Shown here: positions 12,460-25,418 of the stretch, piece after piece
Layout: each line of letters opens with the position of its first letter
Position numbering within the stretch: position 1 is the stretch's first letter
Assembly (NCBI GenBank): GCA_026708115.1
Contig: JAPOVL010000045.1
Location: 1-64,000, forward strand
Reading direction: 5' to 3'
From: Chloroflexota bacterium
Lineage (GTDB): Bacteria; Chloroflexota; Anaerolineae; Aggregatilineales; Phototrophicaceae
Length of the DNA: 64,000 nucleotides
Notes under the pieces: model-generated
What the model saw: the letters and a program-made list of their open reading frames with translations, nothing else
Told to the model about the DNA's origin: nothing
The model's database searches: none
Translations under genes and position numbers: made by a program

Positions 12460-13926
12460 TTGGCGCGGGTCAACGCTCTGCAAATCTGGATCGGTCGGGT
12501 CAAGAGCCGCCACTACTGGATGGCGGTGGGATTCGCCGTCGGCGCGCTGGCGACATTGATCGGCTTCGTGATCGCTCTTGCGGGGCCCTTCCTGGCGCTG
12601 GCAGCCATATTTGGCGTATTGGCGGGTCTATATGTCATCACCGATATCCGCGTCGCGCTCTACGCCATCATTGTGACATTGCTGCTGCTGCCGTTTGGCG
12701 TATTCCCGGTCAAGATCGCAATTACGCCCACGCTGCTGGATTTAGCCATGGGCGGATTCTTACTGGTTTATTTGCTGCAGTGGATGACTGGCCGGCGGGG
12801 AGGCCTGCGCCTGACGCCCGTGCATGCCTTGGTTGCTGTATACGTCATGTGGCTGATATTCACTTTTGCCCTGGGCTTGCGACATGCCATGCCCACGCCG
12901 GCAAATATCCGGCAGTTTGCGGAGACCCTGTTGAGCATCGGCATGGTTTTCATCCTCTCGGACCTGCTGCGCGATCCCAAGACGCTCAGGCGCCTGGTCT
13001 TGGTGATTGTGCTGGCGATCGGCTTGCAGGCGCTGATCGCCATCGCGCTCTTGGTCGCGCCCGATACCTTCGCCGAAGCCTTGTTGGTCCGGCTCTCGCG
13101 AATCGGCTATCCGGATGGCGGCGTCATCCGATACATCGAGGACAACCCAGCTTTCGGCGAAAGGGCCATCGGCACCTGGGTCGATCCCAACGCGCTGGGG
13201 GGCATCCTGGCGGCTGCGTCGCTCATCATTGCCCCTCAAATCGTCTCAAGAGCGCCGGTCATTTCAAAGCGATGGTTGACTTTGGCCATCTTTGGGGCTG
13301 TGACGCTGGCATTGTACTTGACCTCGTCGCGGGCATCGCTGCTGGCTTTGGCTTGCGGTCTGCTATTCATCGCGATAATTCGCTATCGCCGGATGCTGCC
13401 TGTTCTGCTCATCGGCGCGATCGCCTTTGTCCTGCTGCCTCAAACACAAGGTTACCTGGATCGATTGCTGCAGGCCTTCCAGGGCGCTGATTTGGCTACG
13501 CAGATGCGGATTGGCGAATGGACTGATTCGCTGACGCTAATCGGTCGCTACCCCCTGGTTGGCGTTGGCTTTACCGGAACACCTGAAATCGATATCTATA
13601 CCGATGTCGCCAACATGTACTTGATCATGGCAAACCAAATCGGGCTCACAGGCGTGGCGATCTTTCTGTCTGCCATGGCCGCCGTTTTTGCCTATGGCCA
13701 TGTGGCTTGGCGCCAGGCCAGGAAGCAGCCGGACTTGACGGCGATTCACCTTGGTTACCACGCCGCCCTGCTCACTGCGCTGGTCAATGCCGTTGCCGAC
13801 CTGTACTTTTTTCGACTCGACTTCCAGTCTTCAATTACTTGGTTCTGGCTCGTCGTCGCCCTGTGCCTGGCGAGTTCTCGACTGGTATTGGAACGGAACT
13901 CGGCAGCAATTAAACAGGCGGATTAA
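12460..13926 (+). CDS. O-antigen ligase / polymerase family membrane protein
   Basis: A 488-residue polytopic protein with around ten to twelve membrane segments and the Wzy_C-type core (LTSSRASLLALACGLL, then IGRYPLVGVGFTG). Members polymerise or ligate lipid-linked oligosaccharides on the outer face of the cytoplasmic membrane. It starts with TTG preceded by GGAGG inside the end of the previous gene, so the two are translated as a pair. With Rmd, Gmd and the two glycosyltransferases it makes a plausible surface-glycan locus. No flippase or chain-length regulator is seen in the window. Confidence 0.82.
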   Translation: MARVNALQIWIGRVKSRHYWMAVGFAVGALATLIGFVIALAGPFLALAAIFGVLAGLYVITDIRVALYAIIVTLLLLPFGVFPVKIAITPTLLDLAMGGFLLVYLLQWMTGRRGGLRLTPVHALVAVYVMWLIFTFALGLRHAMPTPANIRQFAETLLSIGMVFILSDLLRDPKTLRRLVLVIVLAIGLQALIAIALLVAPDTFAEALLVRLSRIGYPDGGVIRYIEDNPAFGERAIGTWVDPNALGGILAAASLIIAPQIVSRAPVISKRWLTLAIFGAVTLALYLTSSRASLLALACGLLFIAIIRYRRMLPVLLIGAIAFVLLPQTQGYLDRLLQAFQGADLATQMRIGEWTDSLTLIGRYPLVGVGFTGTPEIDIYTDVANMYLIMANQIGLTGVAIFLSAMAAVFAYGHVAWRQARKQPDLTAIHLGYHAALLTALVNAVADLYFFRLDFQSSITWFWLVVALCLASSRLVLERNSAAIKQAD

Positions 13927-16327: not shown

Positions 16328-16352
16328 GCAGAGGGTTAAGCCCTCTGCTTTT
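16328..16352 (+). terminator. Rho-independent terminator-like hairpin after the parvulin gene
   Basis: A perfect 8-bp stem, GCAGAGGG pairing with CCCTCTGC around a five-base loop (TTAAG), is followed directly by TTTT. It lies 45 bp past the parvulin stop and before the FHA operon, the expected place for transcription to end. Confidence 0.8.
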
Positions 16353-16413
16353 GCATTACCCGGGCCTGCGAGGCGAGCTATTGCTAAACCGGCGACTCGA
16401 CTATAATGCGAGC

Positions 16414-17193
16414 ATGGGAAACAAAGCGCTGGACAGACTGGAATCGCAACTGGAAGCCCTGATCGAAGGCGCGTTCGCGCGCATCTTCCAGAAGCATTTG
16501 AGCGCGCGAGACCTATCGATTTTAATTGGGCGCGCCATTGAAGATGCGGCAGCGACAAGCCAGGATGTGGATGGAAAACTCGTTGCGCCAGATAGTTACA
16601 GCATTCTATTGCATCCGAAGACCCGAGAGCAGTTCCTCAGCGAGTACCCGGATCTTGCCCGGCGTTTGGCGAGGCTAGTCGTCGAACTCACGCAGGAATC
16701 CGGCTATCACTTGAATTGCGAGCCAACTGTCTTCATCGAGGCCGACAATGATCTCGCCCTTCATCAGTTCAGGATTAGCGCTCGCCACGGCGAATTTGAG
16801 CGCTTCGAAACAACGAACATGTATCCTGTCGATAAAGCCGGCCCTGCAGCATACGAACGGGGGCTGATAAGGATTATCGGCGCGGCTGCCCCAATCGAGC
16901 TGAAAAAGCCGGTCACAAATATCGGACGAGACGATAACAATGACATTGTCGTCGATGACGCCTATGTCTCGAGGCATCACCTGCAACTGCGATGGCGACA
17001 TGGCGTTCATATCCTGTTTGATCTGGACAGCCGAGGCGGCACCTATGTCGACAACGTTTCTGTGCGAGAACATCAATTGGGGGATGGAGATATCATTCGC
17101 ATTGGCCGCAGCGAACTGGTATACAACCGGCGCGGCACGCGCCCCGACAAGGATGGCACTAGTCGCGAAATAAGGCAGGATCGTGAACACTGA
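16414..17193 (+). CDS. fhaA: DUF3662 and FHA domain protein (FhaA-like)
   Basis: A 259-residue protein. The N-terminal DUF3662 domain (residues 1 to about 120) reads ALDRLESQLEALIEGAFARI. The C-terminal FHA domain (about 165-245) has the phosphothreonine-binding pattern GRDDNNDI, SRHHLQL and DLDSRGGTYVDN. FHA domains bind phosphothreonine, so this is likely an adaptor for Ser/Thr-kinase signalling at the cell envelope. In Actinobacteria fhaA and fhaB precede rodA and pbpA; the same order occurs here with one insertion. I use the ATG at 16414 because upstream sequence includes the terminator. The stop overlaps the next gene by about 10 bp. Confidence 0.92.
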   Translation: MGNKALDRLESQLEALIEGAFARIFQKHLSARDLSILIGRAIEDAAATSQDVDGKLVAPDSYSILLHPKTREQFLSEYPDLARRLARLVVELTQESGYHLNCEPTVFIEADNDLALHQFRISARHGEFERFETTNMYPVDKAGPAAYERGLIRIIGAAAPIELKKPVTNIGRDDNNDIVVDDAYVSRHHLQLRWRHGVHILFDLDSRGGTYVDNVSVREHQLGDGDIIRIGRSELVYNRRGTRPDKDGTSREIRQDREH

Positions 17194-17638
17194 AGTCGCG
17201 GTATTCCTCTTGCGCCTGCTCAGCAGCTTGATTCTTGCGGGTTTTCTCCTGGCGCTGTTTTACATGATCTGGCGCAGTCTCGTTCAGATGACAGACAGCC
17301 TCGAAGCCGAAGGGACGCCTTATGCCAGACTGAGCGCCATTGGCGATGAGAATGGCGCGCATCGTCCCGAAATGAGTTTCGCTCTGCTGCCGGTCACGAC
17401 CCTGGGCAGATCATCGAGCAATGCCGTCGTCGTCGATGACGAATATGCCAGCGCCCTCCACGCCACAATTATCTTGGAAAACGGCCAATGGTGGATAGAA
17501 GACCGCGAGAGCCGCAATGGCACTCAGCTCAACGATCAGAGAATTCAGCAGCGTACTGCCCTGGCCGATGGCGACGAGATCCGTATTGGTCACCGCAGAT
17601 ACAGGCTGAATTTGACGAAACAGCGCGCTAGCTCGTAA
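17183..17638 (+). CDS. fhaB: Membrane-anchored FHA domain protein (FhaB-like)
   Basis: A 151-residue protein with an N-terminal membrane segment (residues 6-29, LLRLLSSLILAGFLLALFY) and a C-terminal FHA domain (about 72-140: TLGRSSSNAVVVDD, ALHATI, DRESRNGTQLND). It starts with GTG, preceded by AGGCAGGA, inside the end of fhaA. The topology places the FHA domain in the cytoplasm near the membrane, consistent with recruiting phosphorylated division or elongation proteins. The serine in the usual SxxH position appears as SALH. Confidence 0.92.
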   Translation: MNTEVAVFLLRLLSSLILAGFLLALFYMIWRSLVQMTDSLEAEGTPYARLSAIGDENGAHRPEMSFALLPVTTLGRSSSNAVVVDDEYASALHATIILENGQWWIEDRESRNGTQLNDQRIQQRTALADGDEIRIGHRRYRLNLTKQRASS

Positions 17639-17690: not shown

Positions 17691-18578
17691 ATGGAACAGG
17701 TGAAGATCGCGGTTATTGGCGGGTCGGGGCTCTACAATATGCCAAACATTACAGATGTGGTCGGCGTCGAAGTAGATACGCCCTACGGCAATCCGAGCGG
17801 GACGATCAAGATCGGCAGCTTGAGCGGCAAACGCGTCGCTTTTCTGCCTCGTCACGGCGAGGGGCATGTGCTTTCGCCGGCGACCCTGCCCTATCGCGCG
17901 AACATTTTCGCTCTCAAAAAACTTGGCGCGCGCTTCATCATCGCGGTTAACGCTGTGGGCTCGTTACGTGAAGACTTTGCGCCGGGAGATATCATCACGC
18001 CCGACCAGATCGTTGACTATACGATTCACACGCGCTCCCGCTCTTTCTTCGAGTCAGGGGTGGTAGCGCACATATCGGTTGCGGAGCCGATGAGCGCTTA
18101 CTTGCGCGACGTTATCGCCGATGCCGTAGAAGCGGTCGGCGGCAAAGCGCATCGGCAGGGCGTCTTTTTGGTGGAGGATGGCCCGCGTTTTGCGACCCGC
18201 GCCGAGAGCCATCTGTTCCGGGCATGGGGTTGCGATCTCATCGGCATGACCAGCGCGCCGGAAGCGTTTCTAGCGCGCGAAGCGGAGATTGACTATGCTT
18301 CGCTGGCCCATGTCACGGACTACGACTGTTGGCGCGAAGAGGAAGAAGCGGTGACCTCGGACATGGTCATTCAGACGCTGTCAAGCAACATCGAGACTGT
18401 GAAGAAAGCGCTGGCGGCCGCGATCGCCAATATCGACGTGGATACGATAGTCCCGGCGCACAGCGCGCTCGACACGGCACTGGCAACAGCGCGCCCGGCG
18501 ATGGATAGGGAGATGATCGAGAAACTGCGTCCGATTTTGGCTCGCGTCTTGAAACTTGATGAAACCACAGAGCAATAG
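17691..18578 (+). CDS. mtnP: S-methyl-5'-thioadenosine phosphorylase
   Basis: Phosphorolytic cleavage of methylthioadenosine to adenine and methylthioribose-1-phosphate, the first step of methionine salvage. The 295-residue protein has the phosphate-binding IGGSGLYNM and PRHGEGH segments and NAVGSLRED. GMTSAPEAFLARE and the DYDCW signature separate MTA phosphorylases from purine nucleoside phosphorylases. It sits between fhaB and the rodA/ftsW gene and overlaps the latter by about 20 bp, so it is embedded in a cell-envelope operon without an obvious functional link. Confidence 0.95.
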   Translation: MEQVKIAVIGGSGLYNMPNITDVVGVEVDTPYGNPSGTIKIGSLSGKRVAFLPRHGEGHVLSPATLPYRANIFALKKLGARFIIAVNAVGSLREDFAPGDIITPDQIVDYTIHTRSRSFFESGVVAHISVAEPMSAYLRDVIADAVEAVGGKAHRQGVFLVEDGPRFATRAESHLFRAWGCDLIGMTSAPEAFLAREAEIDYASLAHVTDYDCWREEEEAVTSDMVIQTLSSNIETVKKALAAAIANIDVDTIVPAHSALDTALATARPAMDREMIEKLRPILARVLKLDETTEQ

Positions 18579-19854
18579 GCGAGAAAACAGCCTCTTTAGT
18601 CGAAGTCGACAGCAATGGCTGCTGCTTGCGCTGGCGGGGGCTTTCATTGCGACAAATAGCCTGGCCCTGGCGCTAAGCGGCAGTGCTGCGCAGAGTGATT
18701 GGAGCGGTCTGGCGCTCTGGATAAGCTGCGCGCTGGTTGGCGGGAAGATTTTGGATCATTATCTTCCGGATCGCGATCCCATTCTGTTTCCTGTCGTCAT
18801 GTTCTTAAGCGGTTGGGGCTTGCTGACGATCGCGCGCTTGGCGCCGCCTTTCGCGAATCGACAAGAGGTTTGGCTGCTAGTCTCAATCGGGGCGATGCTG
18901 CTGGTCGCAGTGTTTCCGCAGGCATTGCGCTGGATGCGTAAGTACCGCTATGTCATCCTGGCTGTCGCCCTGGCGCTCATGCTGGCCACGATCGCATTTG
19001 GCAGCAATCCCTCGGGTTTCGCCTTCGCGCCGCGGCTCTGGTTGCGCTTGGGCGGGTTCTATTTTCAGCCCTCCGAGATGATGAAAGTGGTCTTGGTCGC
19101 CTTCCTGGCGAGCTACCTGGGCGAAGGCGCAACGGCATACAGAATCGCCGACAAGGATGGCAGCGCCAAAGCGCACCTGCCGCGACTGCTGGGGCCGACG
19201 GCGCTAATTTCGGCACTATCAATTGTCATGCTCATCTGGCAGCGCGACCTTGGCGCGGCCATGCTGTTTTTCGCCGTATTCCTGCTCATGCTGTATTTGA
19301 CAAGCGGCGACTGGCGGGTGATCGCGGGTGGCGCGGCAATGGTGATTGTGGCCGGATTCGTCGCGTATCACTTGTTTGATGTCGTTCGGCTGCGCGTCGA
19401 TATCTGGCTGAATCCATGGCCCGAGGCGGATAGCCGCGCCTACCAGATCGTACAAAGCCTGATGGCTTTCAGTTCAGGCGGCGTATTTGGAACGGGCCTG
19501 GGCCAAGGCTCGCCGCTCTATGTGCCGGTGGTACACTCGGATTTCATATTTGCGGCGCTAGCCGAAGAGTGGGGCTTGCTCGGCGTCATCGGCGCAATAG
19601 GCTGCTTCGCGGTCTTGACGCTGCGCGGCTTGAGCATCGGGCTGCGGCATTCCACGAGCGCATTCCGCCGGCTATTCGCGATTGGCTTGTCCACGATGCT
19701 GGCCGTTCAAGCGCTCATGATCATGGGAGGCGTGCTCAAGCTGATCCCTTTAACAGGCGTTACGCTACCCTTCTTCAGTTACGGCGGCAGCTCCTTGCTG
19801 GTCAGCTTCGTTATGATCGGCATCCTGATTCGCCTGTCTTCCGAGGCGCGCTGA
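18559..19854 (+). CDS. RodA/FtsW/SpoVE-family lipid II polymerase
   Basis: A SEDS-family glycosyltransferase with about ten membrane segments. Family landmarks include RLGGFYFQPSEMMKVVLVAFLASY, LIWQRDLGAAMLFFAVF, the WLNPWPEA loop with its aspartate-rich neighbour, and FSYGGSSLLVSF near the C terminus. SEDS proteins polymerise lipid II into glycan strands and work with a cognate class B PBP, here encoded immediately downstream with an ATGA overlap. The ATG at 18559 (one codon after the track's TTG) lies inside the end of mtnP. RodA versus FtsW cannot be separated by eye. Confidence 0.94.
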   Translation: MKPQSNRRENSLFSRSRQQWLLLALAGAFIATNSLALALSGSAAQSDWSGLALWISCALVGGKILDHYLPDRDPILFPVVMFLSGWGLLTIARLAPPFANRQEVWLLVSIGAMLLVAVFPQALRWMRKYRYVILAVALALMLATIAFGSNPSGFAFAPRLWLRLGGFYFQPSEMMKVVLVAFLASYLGEGATAYRIADKDGSAKAHLPRLLGPTALISALSIVMLIWQRDLGAAMLFFAVFLLMLYLTSGDWRVIAGGAAMVIVAGFVAYHLFDVVRLRVDIWLNPWPEADSRAYQIVQSLMAFSSGGVFGTGLGQGSPLYVPVVHSDFIFAALAEEWGLLGVIGAIGCFAVLTLRGLSIGLRHSTSAFRRLFAIGLSTMLAVQALMIMGGVLKLIPLTGVTLPFFSYGGSSLLVSFVMIGILIRLSSEAR

Positions 19855-21272
19855 TGATTGCGCTGCCGGCAATCAAACGCTTGATGTTGGCGACGCTCTT
19901 GCTCTTCGCGGCGATAGCCCTGGCAGCAACTTATTGGGCGGTCGTGGGACGAGACGGCATATTGCTGCGGGACGACAACCCGCGGCTGATCGAGGCCCTT
20001 GCGCGGATTCATCGCGGCAGCATTTACGACCGTCAGGAACAGTTGCTGGTCGAGAGCGTGGCGACCGAGGGCGGCATGAGACGATCTTACCTGCGGCCGT
20101 CGACATACAGCCTGGTCGGCTATTACAGTTTGCGTTACGGCGCTTCCGGCGTCGAAGCTGCATCTTACGACGCGTTAGTCGGAAGCAAATCGACTGAAAC
20201 TTTGGAGAACTATTTCCTGCGCGAGATTCTCAATATGCCGCGAGAAGGCGCGGATCTGCGGCTGACACTCGCGGCCGATGTCCAGGACGCGCTCACGCTC
20301 GCCATGCGGGACTATCGAGGCGCGGCCGTCGTGATGGACTCGAAGAGCGGAGCGATTATGGCAATGGCCAGTTTGCCCGGTTACGATCCCAATACGCTCG
20401 ATGAGGACTGGGCAGACCTGGTTGCCGACGAGGGCAGGCCATTTTTCAACCGCGCCGTGCAAGGCCTGTATCAGCCGGGCAGCGCTTTGACAACGCTGTG
20501 GCTGGCACAGGCGATTCAGTCTGGTTACGACCTGTCAACACCATTCGTCGAGCCAGACGCGCCGGTTGAACTCGAGCCAGACTTGACTTTCAAGTGCTTG
20601 TTGCAACCGTCCAGCGAAGAAATCACCTTAATGGAAGCTTTCATTTCCGGATGCCCCGCTCCTTTCGTCAACTATCAGGCGACGCAGGCCGGGGACAGCT
20701 ACGCGAGGATCATCGAGACCTTTGCGCTGGCAGAACCGATTACCCTGGCGGGTTTCCCGATTCCGGGCGCCGGCGCTATAGCGGCGACCGATCGCGACGA
20801 GGCTGCGGAATCGGGCGCGTTGCGCCCGCGCGATGTGTTGGGACAAGGCGATCTGACTATGACTCCGCTGCAAATGGCCAGCATCATGTCCGCCATAGCA
20901 GGTGACGGCGCTGCGCCGACGCCCTATGTTTTGTCGGGGATTCGCCAGCCGGACGCGGAAATATGGGAGGAAGAGCAGCCAGGACAGAGCGCTCGCGTCA
21001 TGATGGCGCCCGACACCGCCGCAGGACTTCGCGCCGTGTTCCAGGAGGCCTGGCATAAGCTGCGAGCCGAATCCCGCCCTCCCGATCCCAGGGTCGGCGC
21101 CAACATCGCAGTGTCCCGATCCGGCGAAGAGACGCAGATTTGGCTGAATGGATTTGTGAGGCCCGACGAGAGACCGGCAGTTGCATTCGTCGCTGTGCTG
21201 GAAAACACAGACGATATTGAAGCGCTTGTCTCGGTGGGACAAAACCTAGCCCAAGCGATCTTGTCGCTGTAA
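19854..21272 (+). CDS. PBP-like transpeptidase-fold protein with degenerate active site
   Basis: A 472-residue protein with one N-terminal membrane span, a short linker domain (RIHRGSIYDRQEQLL) and a transpeptidase-fold domain (GAAVVMDSKSGAIMAMASLPGYDPN, NRAVQGLYQPGS, GQGDLTMTPLQMASIM). It is clearly related to PbpA/FtsI-type class B PBPs and is coupled to the SEDS gene. All three catalytic motifs look altered. The SxxK motif reads S210-A-L-T213, so the lysine is missing. The SxN region reads S265-G-C. The KTG triad region reads S421-R-S-G. The fold-bearing motifs are kept, so this is not simple decay. It may be a regulatory pseudoenzyme for the SEDS partner (inference). The track start at 19569 lies inside the upstream gene. 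Confidence 0.88.
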   Translation: MIALPAIKRLMLATLLLFAAIALAATYWAVVGRDGILLRDDNPRLIEALARIHRGSIYDRQEQLLVESVATEGGMRRSYLRPSTYSLVGYYSLRYGASGVEAASYDALVGSKSTETLENYFLREILNMPREGADLRLTLAADVQDALTLAMRDYRGAAVVMDSKSGAIMAMASLPGYDPNTLDEDWADLVADEGRPFFNRAVQGLYQPGSALTTLWLAQAIQSGYDLSTPFVEPDAPVELEPDLTFKCLLQPSSEEITLMEAFISGCPAPFVNYQATQAGDSYARIIETFALAEPITLAGFPIPGAGAIAATDRDEAAESGALRPRDVLGQGDLTMTPLQMASIMSAIAGDGAAPTPYVLSGIRQPDAEIWEEEQPGQSARVMMAPDTAAGLRAVFQEAWHKLRAESRPPDPRVGANIAVSRSGEETQIWLNGFVRPDERPAVAFVAVLENTDDIEALVSVGQNLAQAILSL

Positions 21273-22094: not shown

Positions 22095-25000
22095 TTAACC
22101 TAGGAGCATAATGCCTCTCTTTGCCAGCTCACCGTTAAAGTGCTCGATATCGACATTGACCAGGGATTCAAACGCCTCTATCTGCTTTTGGATCATGTCA
22201 ACTAGTTTCTCGTAAACAGCGTATGACTGCTCCGTGGGAGGATACTCTCCCATAGCAACCACAGATGGCAAGGCGCTCAAGCGCCGCAAGGGATCTGTGC
22301 CACTGTTGACCCGTCCCGGCCAGCCTTCACGCAAGTCCGGGATCAGAATCCCTTTCTCTACCTCGAGGATGGCTTCTCGCAGCGCGTTGGCGCGTTCCGC
22401 CAGGTCCTTGGTCTCGTCAGATTGAGACAGCCGCTCGCAGAGGCTCTTCAACTGAGCGCGGTGGCCCCGCATCGAATTGACGGACTCAGTCGCTGCCGAG
22501 TAGAAATCGTAGATCGCCTTCAGCAAGGCAAATTGACGATCCAGCTCGTCTTGCGAGGCGTCAGATGTGGCGTCTTTCACCAGGTTGAATGAGCGCGTCT
22601 GAAGATCGTCGCCAAGCCCAAGAGCAACTTGATATTTGCCGGGCGCAACTGTCGGCCCGGGCATGCGCTCGAACTGCACGTCATCGCCCCTGAGCTTTGG
22701 CGATTCCGGCAAGCGCATATCCCAAACGAAGCGATTCCATCCGGCATTGGCAGTGAGGAATACAGCAGATTTATCCTTTTTCTCCTTTTGAGCTTGTCGA
22801 TCGTCAGCGTCCATACTGCAGAACTCGCGCAGGAGATTCCCGGTCTCATCGGAGAAACTCAACTTGATTTTGTCTTCAGGACTTTCGTGAAGGTAATAGG
22901 TCACGATGACGCCGCGCGGCAGATTCTCGCCCGAATCGAGGAAGCTTCGTTCGACAATATTCTCCTCGCTGCTCGAATGCGTGTAAGCCGCCATGACGCC
23001 GGTGGAACTCATATAGGTTTTGCCCGGCTGATCAACCAGGCGCCGCCCATCAATGCTCTCAAGAACGCGCTGGGTATCACGCGGTTGGAGCAAGAGAGAT
23101 TGTGAGGGCGCTGACTCGCCAGCCAATTGATGCAAGACTGTCAGATCATCGAGAATCCAGAAGGAGCGGCCATGCGTCGCGGCGATAAGATCGTTCCTTT
23201 TCACCAGCAGATCGTGCACGGGCGTGATCGGCAAGTTGAACTGCAGCCACTGCCAATTGGCGCCGTCGTCGAAGGAACAGTAGACACCCGTCTCGGTACC
23301 GGCATAGAGCAGGCCCGTCCGCGCCGGATCGCAGCGGATAACACGGGTGAAATCGTGAGCGGGTATGCCCGCGTTGATGCGCGTCCAGGATTGTCCATAA
23401 TCTGTCGTCTTGTAAAGATAGGGCGCATAGTCATCCAGTTTGTAGCGGGTCGCAGCCATGTAACAAGTCGCGGGGTCATGGGCCGAGGGTTCCAGCATGC
23501 TGATCAGGGACCACTCGGGCAGGTCCGAGGGTGTGATGTTTTGCCAGTTGGCGCCATTGTCCCTGGAGATGTGCACCAGTCCGTCGTCCGAGCCGGCCCA
23601 GAAGAGGCCCGGTTCCCGCGGCGATTCGGCAAAGGAAAAGACGGTGGCGTAGACCTCCGCGCCCACAGCATCCCTGTTAATCGGCCCACCCGTGACCTTG
23701 AGCGTCTCGGGATCGGCTCGCGTCAAATCCGGGCTGATCGGCCGCCAACTGTGTCCCTCGTCCGTAGACTTGAAAATTATATTCCCGCCGACGTAGAGCG
23801 TGTTTGGATCATGTGGCGAGAAGACAATAGGATAGGTCCAGGCAAAGCGAAAGGCCAAATCAGCCGCGGCTTCCCCGGCCATATATTCTGGCCAGGTCGT
23901 GACCAGCCGCAACTGCATGGAGCTGTGGTCGTAACGCTGCAAGCAGTTGCCGCCGCCCGGCGAACTGCCGATGGCGCCGACAAAAATGATGTCATCATTG
24001 TCCGGTTTGACCGCAATATAGCCGCTCTCGCCCGAGCCGGCGATAAAGCCGTCCATCCACATGAGCGAGGACTTGTTGTTGCGGCTGGGCACGGCGACGC
24101 TGCTATTGTCCTGCTGCGTGCCGTACACGTAGTAGGGATCGCGATTGTCGGCCGCGACGTGATAGAACTGCGCTGTCGGCTGATTGAAGATCGACGACCA
24201 GGAGGCGCCGCCGTTCAGGGAGACACAGGCGCCGCCATCATTGCCCTGCACCATGCGCGCCGGATTATTCGGGTCAATCCACAGGTCATGGTTATCCCCA
24301 TGCGGGGTAGCGATCATGGAATAAGTGCGGCCGCCGTCAACGGATTTCCAGAAGCGCAAATTGTTGACGTAAACCGTGTCCGCGTCCTGTGGATCGGGGG
24401 TGAGGTGCATGTAATACCAGGCGCGGGAGATGATGTCGTTGTTGCGCGCGACGTACTGCCAGGTGTCGCCATAGTCATCGGAGCGGTACATGCCCCCGTC
24501 TTGATGCTCGATCAAGGCGTAGACGCGTCCGGGCCGGGCCGGCGAGGCGGCAATGCCGATTTTGCCCAAAATCCCCTGCGGCAAGCCCTTGTTCTCTGTG
24601 ATGCTGTGCCAGCTGTCGCCGCCGTCAGTCGAACGCCAGATGCCGCTATCTTCGCCGCCGCTGCTGATCATATGAAAGTTGCGATAAGCCTCCCAAATCG
24701 ACGCGTACATGATGCGCGGATTGTTGAGGTCGATGCTCAGGTCCACCGCGCCAGCTTTGTCGCTGACGAAGAGCACCTGTTCCCAGCTTGCGCCGCCGTC
24801 CGTCGACTTGAAAACGCCGCGCTGCTGATTCCTCCCGAAGGCATGTCCCAATGCCGCGACGAATACGATATCAGGGTCCTGCGGGTGGATGCGGATCTTG
24901 CCGATGTGGCGGGTATCTTCCAGGCCGATATGCTGCCAGCTGCGCCCGGCGTCGGTGGATTTGTAAAGTCCGTCCCCATGCGAGACGTCAATGCGGATGG

Positions 25001-25262
25001 TCGCTTCGCCCGTGCCGGCGTAGATGACGTTGGGATCGGCTTCCGAGACAGCCAGGGCGCCGACCGAAGAGGTGTTGAAGTAGCCGTCGGAGATGCAGCG
25101 CCAGTATTGACCGGCGTCATCGGTCTTCCAGACGCCGCCGGCGCAGGCGCCGAAGTAGAAGGTGCCGAGGTCCCTGGGATCGCCGGCCACGGTAACGACG
25201 CGTCCGCCGCGGAAGGGCCCGATGCAGCGCCAGCGTCCGATGTTGTCGAGGGGAAGGGTCAT
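22095..25262 (-). CDS. Large BNR/VPS10-type beta-propeller repeat protein
   Basis: A 1055-residue protein with many BNR-like Asp-box repeats: VWKTDDAGQYW, LYKSTDAGRSW, VFKSTDGGASW, IWRSTDGGDSW, MYRSDDYGDTW, LYKTTDYGQSW. They build a sortilin/xyloglucanase-type double propeller over roughly residues 1-720. The C-terminal 330 residues form a separate domain with FVWDMRLPESPKLRG and a helical end. Databases often label such proteins glycosyl hydrolase or sialidase-like, but I see no catalytic residues to support a specific activity. No signal peptide is visible from the preferred ATG at 25262; upstream in-frame ATGs (to 25355) exist and would not create one. It is transcribed alone. Confidence 0.82.
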   Translation of the reverse strand: MTLPLDNIGRWRCIGPFRGGRVVTVAGDPRDLGTFYFGACAGGVWKTDDAGQYWRCISDGYFNTSSVGALAVSEADPNVIYAGTGEATIRIDVSHGDGLYKSTDAGRSWQHIGLEDTRHIGKIRIHPQDPDIVFVAALGHAFGRNQQRGVFKSTDGGASWEQVLFVSDKAGAVDLSIDLNNPRIMYASIWEAYRNFHMISSGGEDSGIWRSTDGGDSWHSITENKGLPQGILGKIGIAASPARPGRVYALIEHQDGGMYRSDDYGDTWQYVARNNDIISRAWYYMHLTPDPQDADTVYVNNLRFWKSVDGGRTYSMIATPHGDNHDLWIDPNNPARMVQGNDGGACVSLNGGASWSSIFNQPTAQFYHVAADNRDPYYVYGTQQDNSSVAVPSRNNKSSLMWMDGFIAGSGESGYIAVKPDNDDIIFVGAIGSSPGGGNCLQRYDHSSMQLRLVTTWPEYMAGEAAADLAFRFAWTYPIVFSPHDPNTLYVGGNIIFKSTDEGHSWRPISPDLTRADPETLKVTGGPINRDAVGAEVYATVFSFAESPREPGLFWAGSDDGLVHISRDNGANWQNITPSDLPEWSLISMLEPSAHDPATCYMAATRYKLDDYAPYLYKTTDYGQSWTRINAGIPAHDFTRVIRCDPARTGLLYAGTETGVYCSFDDGANWQWLQFNLPITPVHDLLVKRNDLIAATHGRSFWILDDLTVLHQLAGESAPSQSLLLQPRDTQRVLESIDGRRLVDQPGKTYMSSTGVMAAYTHSSSEENIVERSFLDSGENLPRGVIVTYYLHESPEDKIKLSFSDETGNLLREFCSMDADDRQAQKEKKDKSAVFLTANAGWNRFVWDMRLPESPKLRGDDVQFERMPGPTVAPGKYQVALGLGDDLQTRSFNLVKDATSDASQDELDRQFALLKAIYDFYSAATESVNSMRGHRAQLKSLCERLSQSDETKDLAERANALREAILEVEKGILIPDLREGWPGRVNSGTDPLRRLSALPSVVAMGEYPPTEQSYAVYEKLVDMIQKQIEAFESLVNVDIEHFNGELAKRGIMLLG

Positions 25263-25418
25263 GGTGGGTTTGCTTTCGTCGTGGATGGATGAGATGGGGG
25301 CTATTGTAGCGTGAATGCTCATCCACTTGCTAATCTGCATCCATTGCATTTCCAACGATATTGGCGGACAATGTTTGATACGTGATTGTTCACACTTTTA
25401 GCAAGGAGGTGACAAATC

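Follow-up and report, generated by a model that had tools for sequence, protein, structure and literature searches.

We analysed a window of 64,000 nucleotides from a Chloroflexota bacterium (contig JAPOVL010000045.1), in which a plus-strand operon encodes a FhaA-like protein (FhaA_N plus FHA; 16351-17193), a FhaB-like FHA-domain protein (17183-17638), an S-methyl-5'-thioadenosine phosphorylase (MTAP; 17691-18578), a SEDS polymerase (18556-19854) and a 472-residue class B penicillin-binding protein (bPBP) of the PbpA type (19854-21272). The stop codon of the SEDS gene (TGA, 19852-19854) overlaps the start codon of pbpA (ATG, 19854-19856) as TGATG. The gene order fha-rodA-pbpA is that of PbpA-type loci, and the order FhaA-FhaB-MTAP-SEDS-PbpA is found in most Anaerolineae loci, where the MTAP gene between fhaB and the SEDS gene is conserved; this insertion is absent from actinobacterial loci, which read FhaA-FhaB-SEDS-PbpA. 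A gene for a Wzy_C/O-antigen ligase-like protein (12460-13926) lies upstream of the operon, and a 1086-residue Sortilin-Vps10/BNR repeat protein is encoded on the minus strand beside it (22095-25355).

The 472-residue protein has the layout of a PbpA-type class B PBP: an N-terminal transmembrane (TM) helix (residues ~4-30), a PBP_dimer_2 pedestal (~34-125; PF21922, 37.4 bits) and a transpeptidase (TPase) domain (~126-472; PF00905, 80.5 bits), with both Pfam matches above the cut-off. This bears out the initial annotation, which had described a class B PBP coupled to a RodA/FtsW gene. An AlphaFold2 model of the protein (pLDDT 91.2, pTM 0.89) contains a complete transpeptidase fold. The closest fold is that of Mycobacterium tuberculosis PBPA (3UN7/3LO7/3UPN; E 3.8e-28, TM 0.75/0.81), which, together with the Eggerthella protein 4MNR, is also among the best sequence matches. 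M. tuberculosis PBPA has the PF21922 pedestal in common with the window protein, and its locus the FhaA-FhaB-SEDS-PbpA order. However, PBPA is active and forms beta-lactam acyl-enzymes in crystals, whereas the window protein has lost all three catalytic motifs and is preceded by a SEDS gene with MTAP before it.

We placed the motifs by alignment to homologues and to the canonical PBPs of the same genome. An active D,D-transpeptidase carries SxxK, SxN and K(T/S)G; the corresponding sites here read SALT (S210-A-L-T213, 20481-20492), GCP (G266-C267-P268, 20649-20657) and NIA (N417-I418-A419, 21102-21110), all on the plus strand. The lysine of SxxK is gone, and in close relatives the serine varies, to Ala or Thr. 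In the AlphaFold2 model, S210 begins a helix (209-222), GCP directly follows another (259-265) and NIA lies within a strand (414-423), so that the predicted positions match those expected of the three motif sites. Neither the alignment nor the model revealed an intact SxxK or KTG elsewhere in the protein. The initial annotation had placed SALT correctly and was right that the other two motifs are lost, but it had put both in the wrong place: the site it read as SGC aligns one residue further on, and the site it read as SRSG aligns four residues upstream. Judged from these sites, transpeptidase chemistry has almost certainly been lost, and we refer to the protein as pseudo-PbpA.

To survey this loss, we collected homologues from relatives of the same genus, family and order, from the class, from the phylum and from a named genome collection; nearly all of these genomes are metagenome-assembled. 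The same state occurs in four more assemblies at 79-83% identity and in many homologues at ~45%, which rules out a local sequencing error. The SxxK lysine is absent from all 93 full-length Anaerolineae pseudo homologues, and the SxN asparagine is replaced by proline in every one of them; the SxxK serine is retained in 14 of the 93 and the KTG lysine in two. Positions 210 (G, A, S, T, L or M) and 417 (H, Q, Y, N, T, F or K) drift among the pseudo homologues, whereas 26 intact references (15 counted from Chloroflexota, 11 from Actinomycetota) show zero variation at the catalytic motif sites. Every pseudo sequence in the phylum-wide sample came from Anaerolineae. In contrast, 44 of 44 Chloroflexota homologues from outside this class carry canonical SxxK, SxN and K[TS]G, and these PbpA proteins (L281, L282, L284-L295, L297-L322, L325-L327) belong to the same family and phylum as the pseudo forms.

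The motif loss could reflect one event or several. We built a phylogeny from the neighbouring SEDS protein, in which the transpeptidase trait does not reside; the search was a quick one, with SH-aLRT support only. In this tree the partners of the pseudo and shortened forms make up one clade of 104 rows, and the nearest lineages outside it are intact. Mapping the motif states onto the tree requires 5 changes, as compared with a mean of 32.9 when the states are shuffled. The SEDS tree is thus consistent with one old loss within Anaerolineae. A homologue in the same genus as an intact one was considered as a second, recent loss (L174 of G066, beside L144 of intact G135) and set aside as a possible assembly artefact. 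Its mid-TPase region has given way to a repetitive Glu/Leu/Gly-rich run, with good conservation of the KTG and of the two ends; this replacement could be a recent change or an artefact of assembly.

Within the clade, the stretch of the TPase domain that bears SxN has been excised in at least three separate groups, and the shortened forms still match SEDS and PBP_dimer_2. In L110, L117, L123, L125, L127, L182 and L185-L197 a large mid-TPase piece is gone, SxN included, and the pedestal remains. Several Anaerolineae lineages also encode the SEDS protein and a pseudo or shortened PbpA in a single frame, with the SEDS and pedestal matches sharing that frame; such natural fusions include L074:4633-7362, L048, L115, L127, L185 and L112, among others. 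The L074 fusion, from the same genus and 910 residues long, is predicted to fold as one confident unit (pLDDT 90.1, pTM 0.81, both whole-chain scores). Several other long open frames that resembled fusions proved to be only GC-rich readthrough in another frame; the true fusions were confirmed by a SEDS search.

Repeated internal deletion might be expected of a decaying, functionless gene that is simply carried along by its operon. The gene is also missing from several genomes, and its TPase domain evolves faster than its surroundings: pairwise NG86 dN/dS among five close species is 0.21 for the TM helix, 0.20 for the pedestal and 0.35 for the TPase domain, as compared with 0.18 for the SEDS protein. 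Yet these values are all well under 1, and we found no internal stops in the matches from across the class. Operon order is conserved, and the pedestal has invariant positions among the pseudo homologues. Because dN/dS is 0.20 in the pedestal and 0.35 in the TPase domain, we do not regard pseudo-PbpA as a pseudogene, and decay is a very unlikely account of it. Constraint has instead shifted toward the pedestal: column entropy in the pseudo forms is lower there than in the TPase domain (1.84 vs 2.21 bits), and this order is reversed in intact Chloroflexota forms (1.49 vs 1.30).

The presence of the gene tracks that of its SEDS partner. Six genomes that encode no pseudo-PbpA (G007, G015, G021, G028, G031 and G236) have two SEDS genes each, whereas nearly all of those in the same comparison that encode it have three; G036, a fragmented assembly, shows two. 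These counts suggest that the SEDS-pseudo-PbpA pair was gained or lost as a unit, and its absence from some relatives indicates that the pair is not essential to the lineage. The initial annotation had suggested a retained pseudo-transpeptidase and had proposed a survey of orthologues and dN/dS. The survey shows that close relatives share the losses rather than carrying canonical motifs. Retention is well supported: the motifs are gone throughout the clade although the reading frames stay open, selection is purifying, the operon is conserved, and the gene disappears together with its SEDS partner.

Some positions of the TPase lobe are fixed. Across the pseudo clade there is no variation at Cys248 (20595-20597), Cys267-Pro268, Gly209, Gln331 or Trp430. 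Since Cys267 is found in 93 of 93 pseudo homologues and lies at the old active site, one could imagine an altered but still active transpeptidase that uses other acylation chemistry, with Cys267 as the nucleophile. We consider this extremely improbable: Cys267 is common in active PbpA, no conserved base is apparent, and the shortened forms do not have the region at all. Moreover, Cys267 co-occurs with a second cysteine, which fits a disulfide. Cys248 and Cys267 are both present in 113 homologues and both absent from five, with Cys267 alone in two; among the 26 intact forms, 19 have both, five have neither and two have Cys267 alone. M. tuberculosis PBPA presumably has a disulfide beside its SxN motif. 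The pattern is consistent with a retained structural disulfide between Cys248 and Cys267, and the presence of Cys267 in 21 of 26 active homologues means that this residue was inherited rather than newly acquired.

The same invariant residues, the TPase dN/dS far under 1 and the fully kept fold could also be read as signs of a dead lobe that has been repurposed, so that the cleft around Cys-Pro would bind a ligand and gate the SEDS protein through the pedestal. The ligand could be the nascent strand, a stem peptide or some partner, for example a factor under Fha control. This is rather unlikely: the inheritance of Cys267 argues against it, and a universal ligand is hard to reconcile with the drift of the catalytic positions and with a lobe shortened at least three times. 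Still, because the TPase lobe remains under constraint and keeps an invariant Cys-Pro, it may do more than act as a cap.

The SEDS protein, in contrast to its partner, appears intact. It matches PF01098 (E 1.5e-77) and reads HSDF at its catalytic-Asp motif, and H[ST]DF is retained in nearly all SEDS partners. In Escherichia coli FtsW, the putative catalytic Asp D297 lies in extracellular loop 4 (ECL4), in the run H295-T296-D297 (PMC8765783); the equivalent run here is HSDF. The SEDS partner is thus probably active as a polymerase, and the locus has the makings of a SEDS-bPBP synthase, namely an adjacent or fused SEDS protein with an intact Asp motif. What it polymerises might be something other than wall, for instance a non-crosslinked surface or sheath polymer that needs no transpeptidase. 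With RodA-PBP2 and FtsW-FtsI also present, the pair counts as a third SEDS system and a dispensable one, and the Wzy_C/O-antigen ligase-like gene lies upstream, which would suit such a product. The ordinary PF01098 match and HSDF motif, as well as the active PbpA of orthologues in other Chloroflexota, make a non-wall product highly unlikely.

We consider it likely that the window encodes a catalytically dead PbpA-family bPBP whose activity was lost in an Anaerolineae ancestor and which has been kept as a non-catalytic partner of its SEDS protein. By analogy with known pairs, our best inference is that it serves as an activator or scaffold. In the current model of RodA-PBP2 and FtsW-FtsI, the bPBP pedestal activates the SEDS protein through ECL4 (PMC8078798). 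Extrapolating from such SEDS-bPBP work, once D,D-transpeptidase activity had been lost in an ancestor within Anaerolineae, the TM helix of pseudo-PbpA would still dock onto the SEDS protein and its pedestal would touch ECL4, switching on glycan polymerisation, with the dead TPase lobe as a structural cap or spacer. The resulting strands would be crosslinked by other PBPs. The genome encodes three other class B PBPs (SVMK, SVYK and SVWK) and two class A PBPs (STIK and SAIK), all with KTG, and because these keep SxxK, crosslinking capacity remains. The initial annotation had offered other crosslinking enzymes or an unusual wall as an alternative; candidates for the former are present, and these intact class A and class B PBPs argue against a wall without crosslinkers. 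A peptidoglycan biosynthesis repertoire has been reported for sponge-associated Anaerolineae genomes (PMC6306507); the isolate names lead us to guess that this genus, too, lives in sponges.

Motif loss in this genus extends beyond PbpA. The divisome FtsI of the same genome (L001/L277; G000:C45:161502-162422, minus strand) reads SIVQ / SVN / KAG, a degeneracy that the initial annotation had missed. Its gene precedes mraY, a murD-like gene and ftsW, the names of mraY and the murD-like gene being read from sequence. Of 34 genomes in the genus, 33 no longer have the SxxK lysine in FtsI and carry Gln or, in two cases, Leu in its place. At the KTG site K[P/A]G or MPG predominates, and only G033 is canonical among the 34; FtsI is also canonical in seven genomes that belong to other genera within the family. 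G236 has lost all three FtsI motifs independently. Despite the loss of the lysine, the serine and most of SxN remain, and the TPase dN/dS of 0.067 (NG86) indicates that FtsI is under strong constraint. The chances seem to us roughly even that in this genus two of three SEDS proteins, the fha-linked one and the divisomal FtsW, pair with lysine-less partners, that polymerisation and crosslinking have been split onto separate proteins, and that bPBPs can persist across a bacterial class purely as SEDS activators.

On the prevailing view, a SEDS polymerase depends on a class B PBP for its activation as well as for crosslinking of the glycan it makes, two roles that point mutants made in the laboratory pull apart only incompletely. 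As in RodA-PBP2 and FtsW-FtsI, a SEDS gene is coupled here to a bPBP with TM, pedestal and TPase domains; unlike in the catalytic partners of those systems, the TPase half is inactive or shortened, sometimes within a SEDS fusion. An experimental parallel comes from Bacillus subtilis, which can still divide with a catalytically inactive PBP2B provided that PBP3 contributes the activity, so that the inactive bPBP is structural and another PBP transpeptidates (PMC5656894). However, PBP2B S309A is a laboratory point mutant, whereas the inactivation in Anaerolineae is natural, apparently old and fixed in a clade. In the open-access papers that we searched, which leave out most subscription journals, we found no earlier account of such a pseudo-transpeptidase.

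The Anaerolineae loci would represent a natural separation of the two roles, in which a SEDS protein with an intact active-site motif is joined by a partner unable to crosslink. All stages are present, from the full-length dead enzyme through a strongly shortened lobe to a single-chain fusion, and the shortened fusions would be natural minimal constructs for locating the region of a bPBP by which a SEDS protein is activated. The lysine-less FtsI, for its part, may have consequences for cell division in these bacteria and for the range of their PBPs that beta-lactams can reach.
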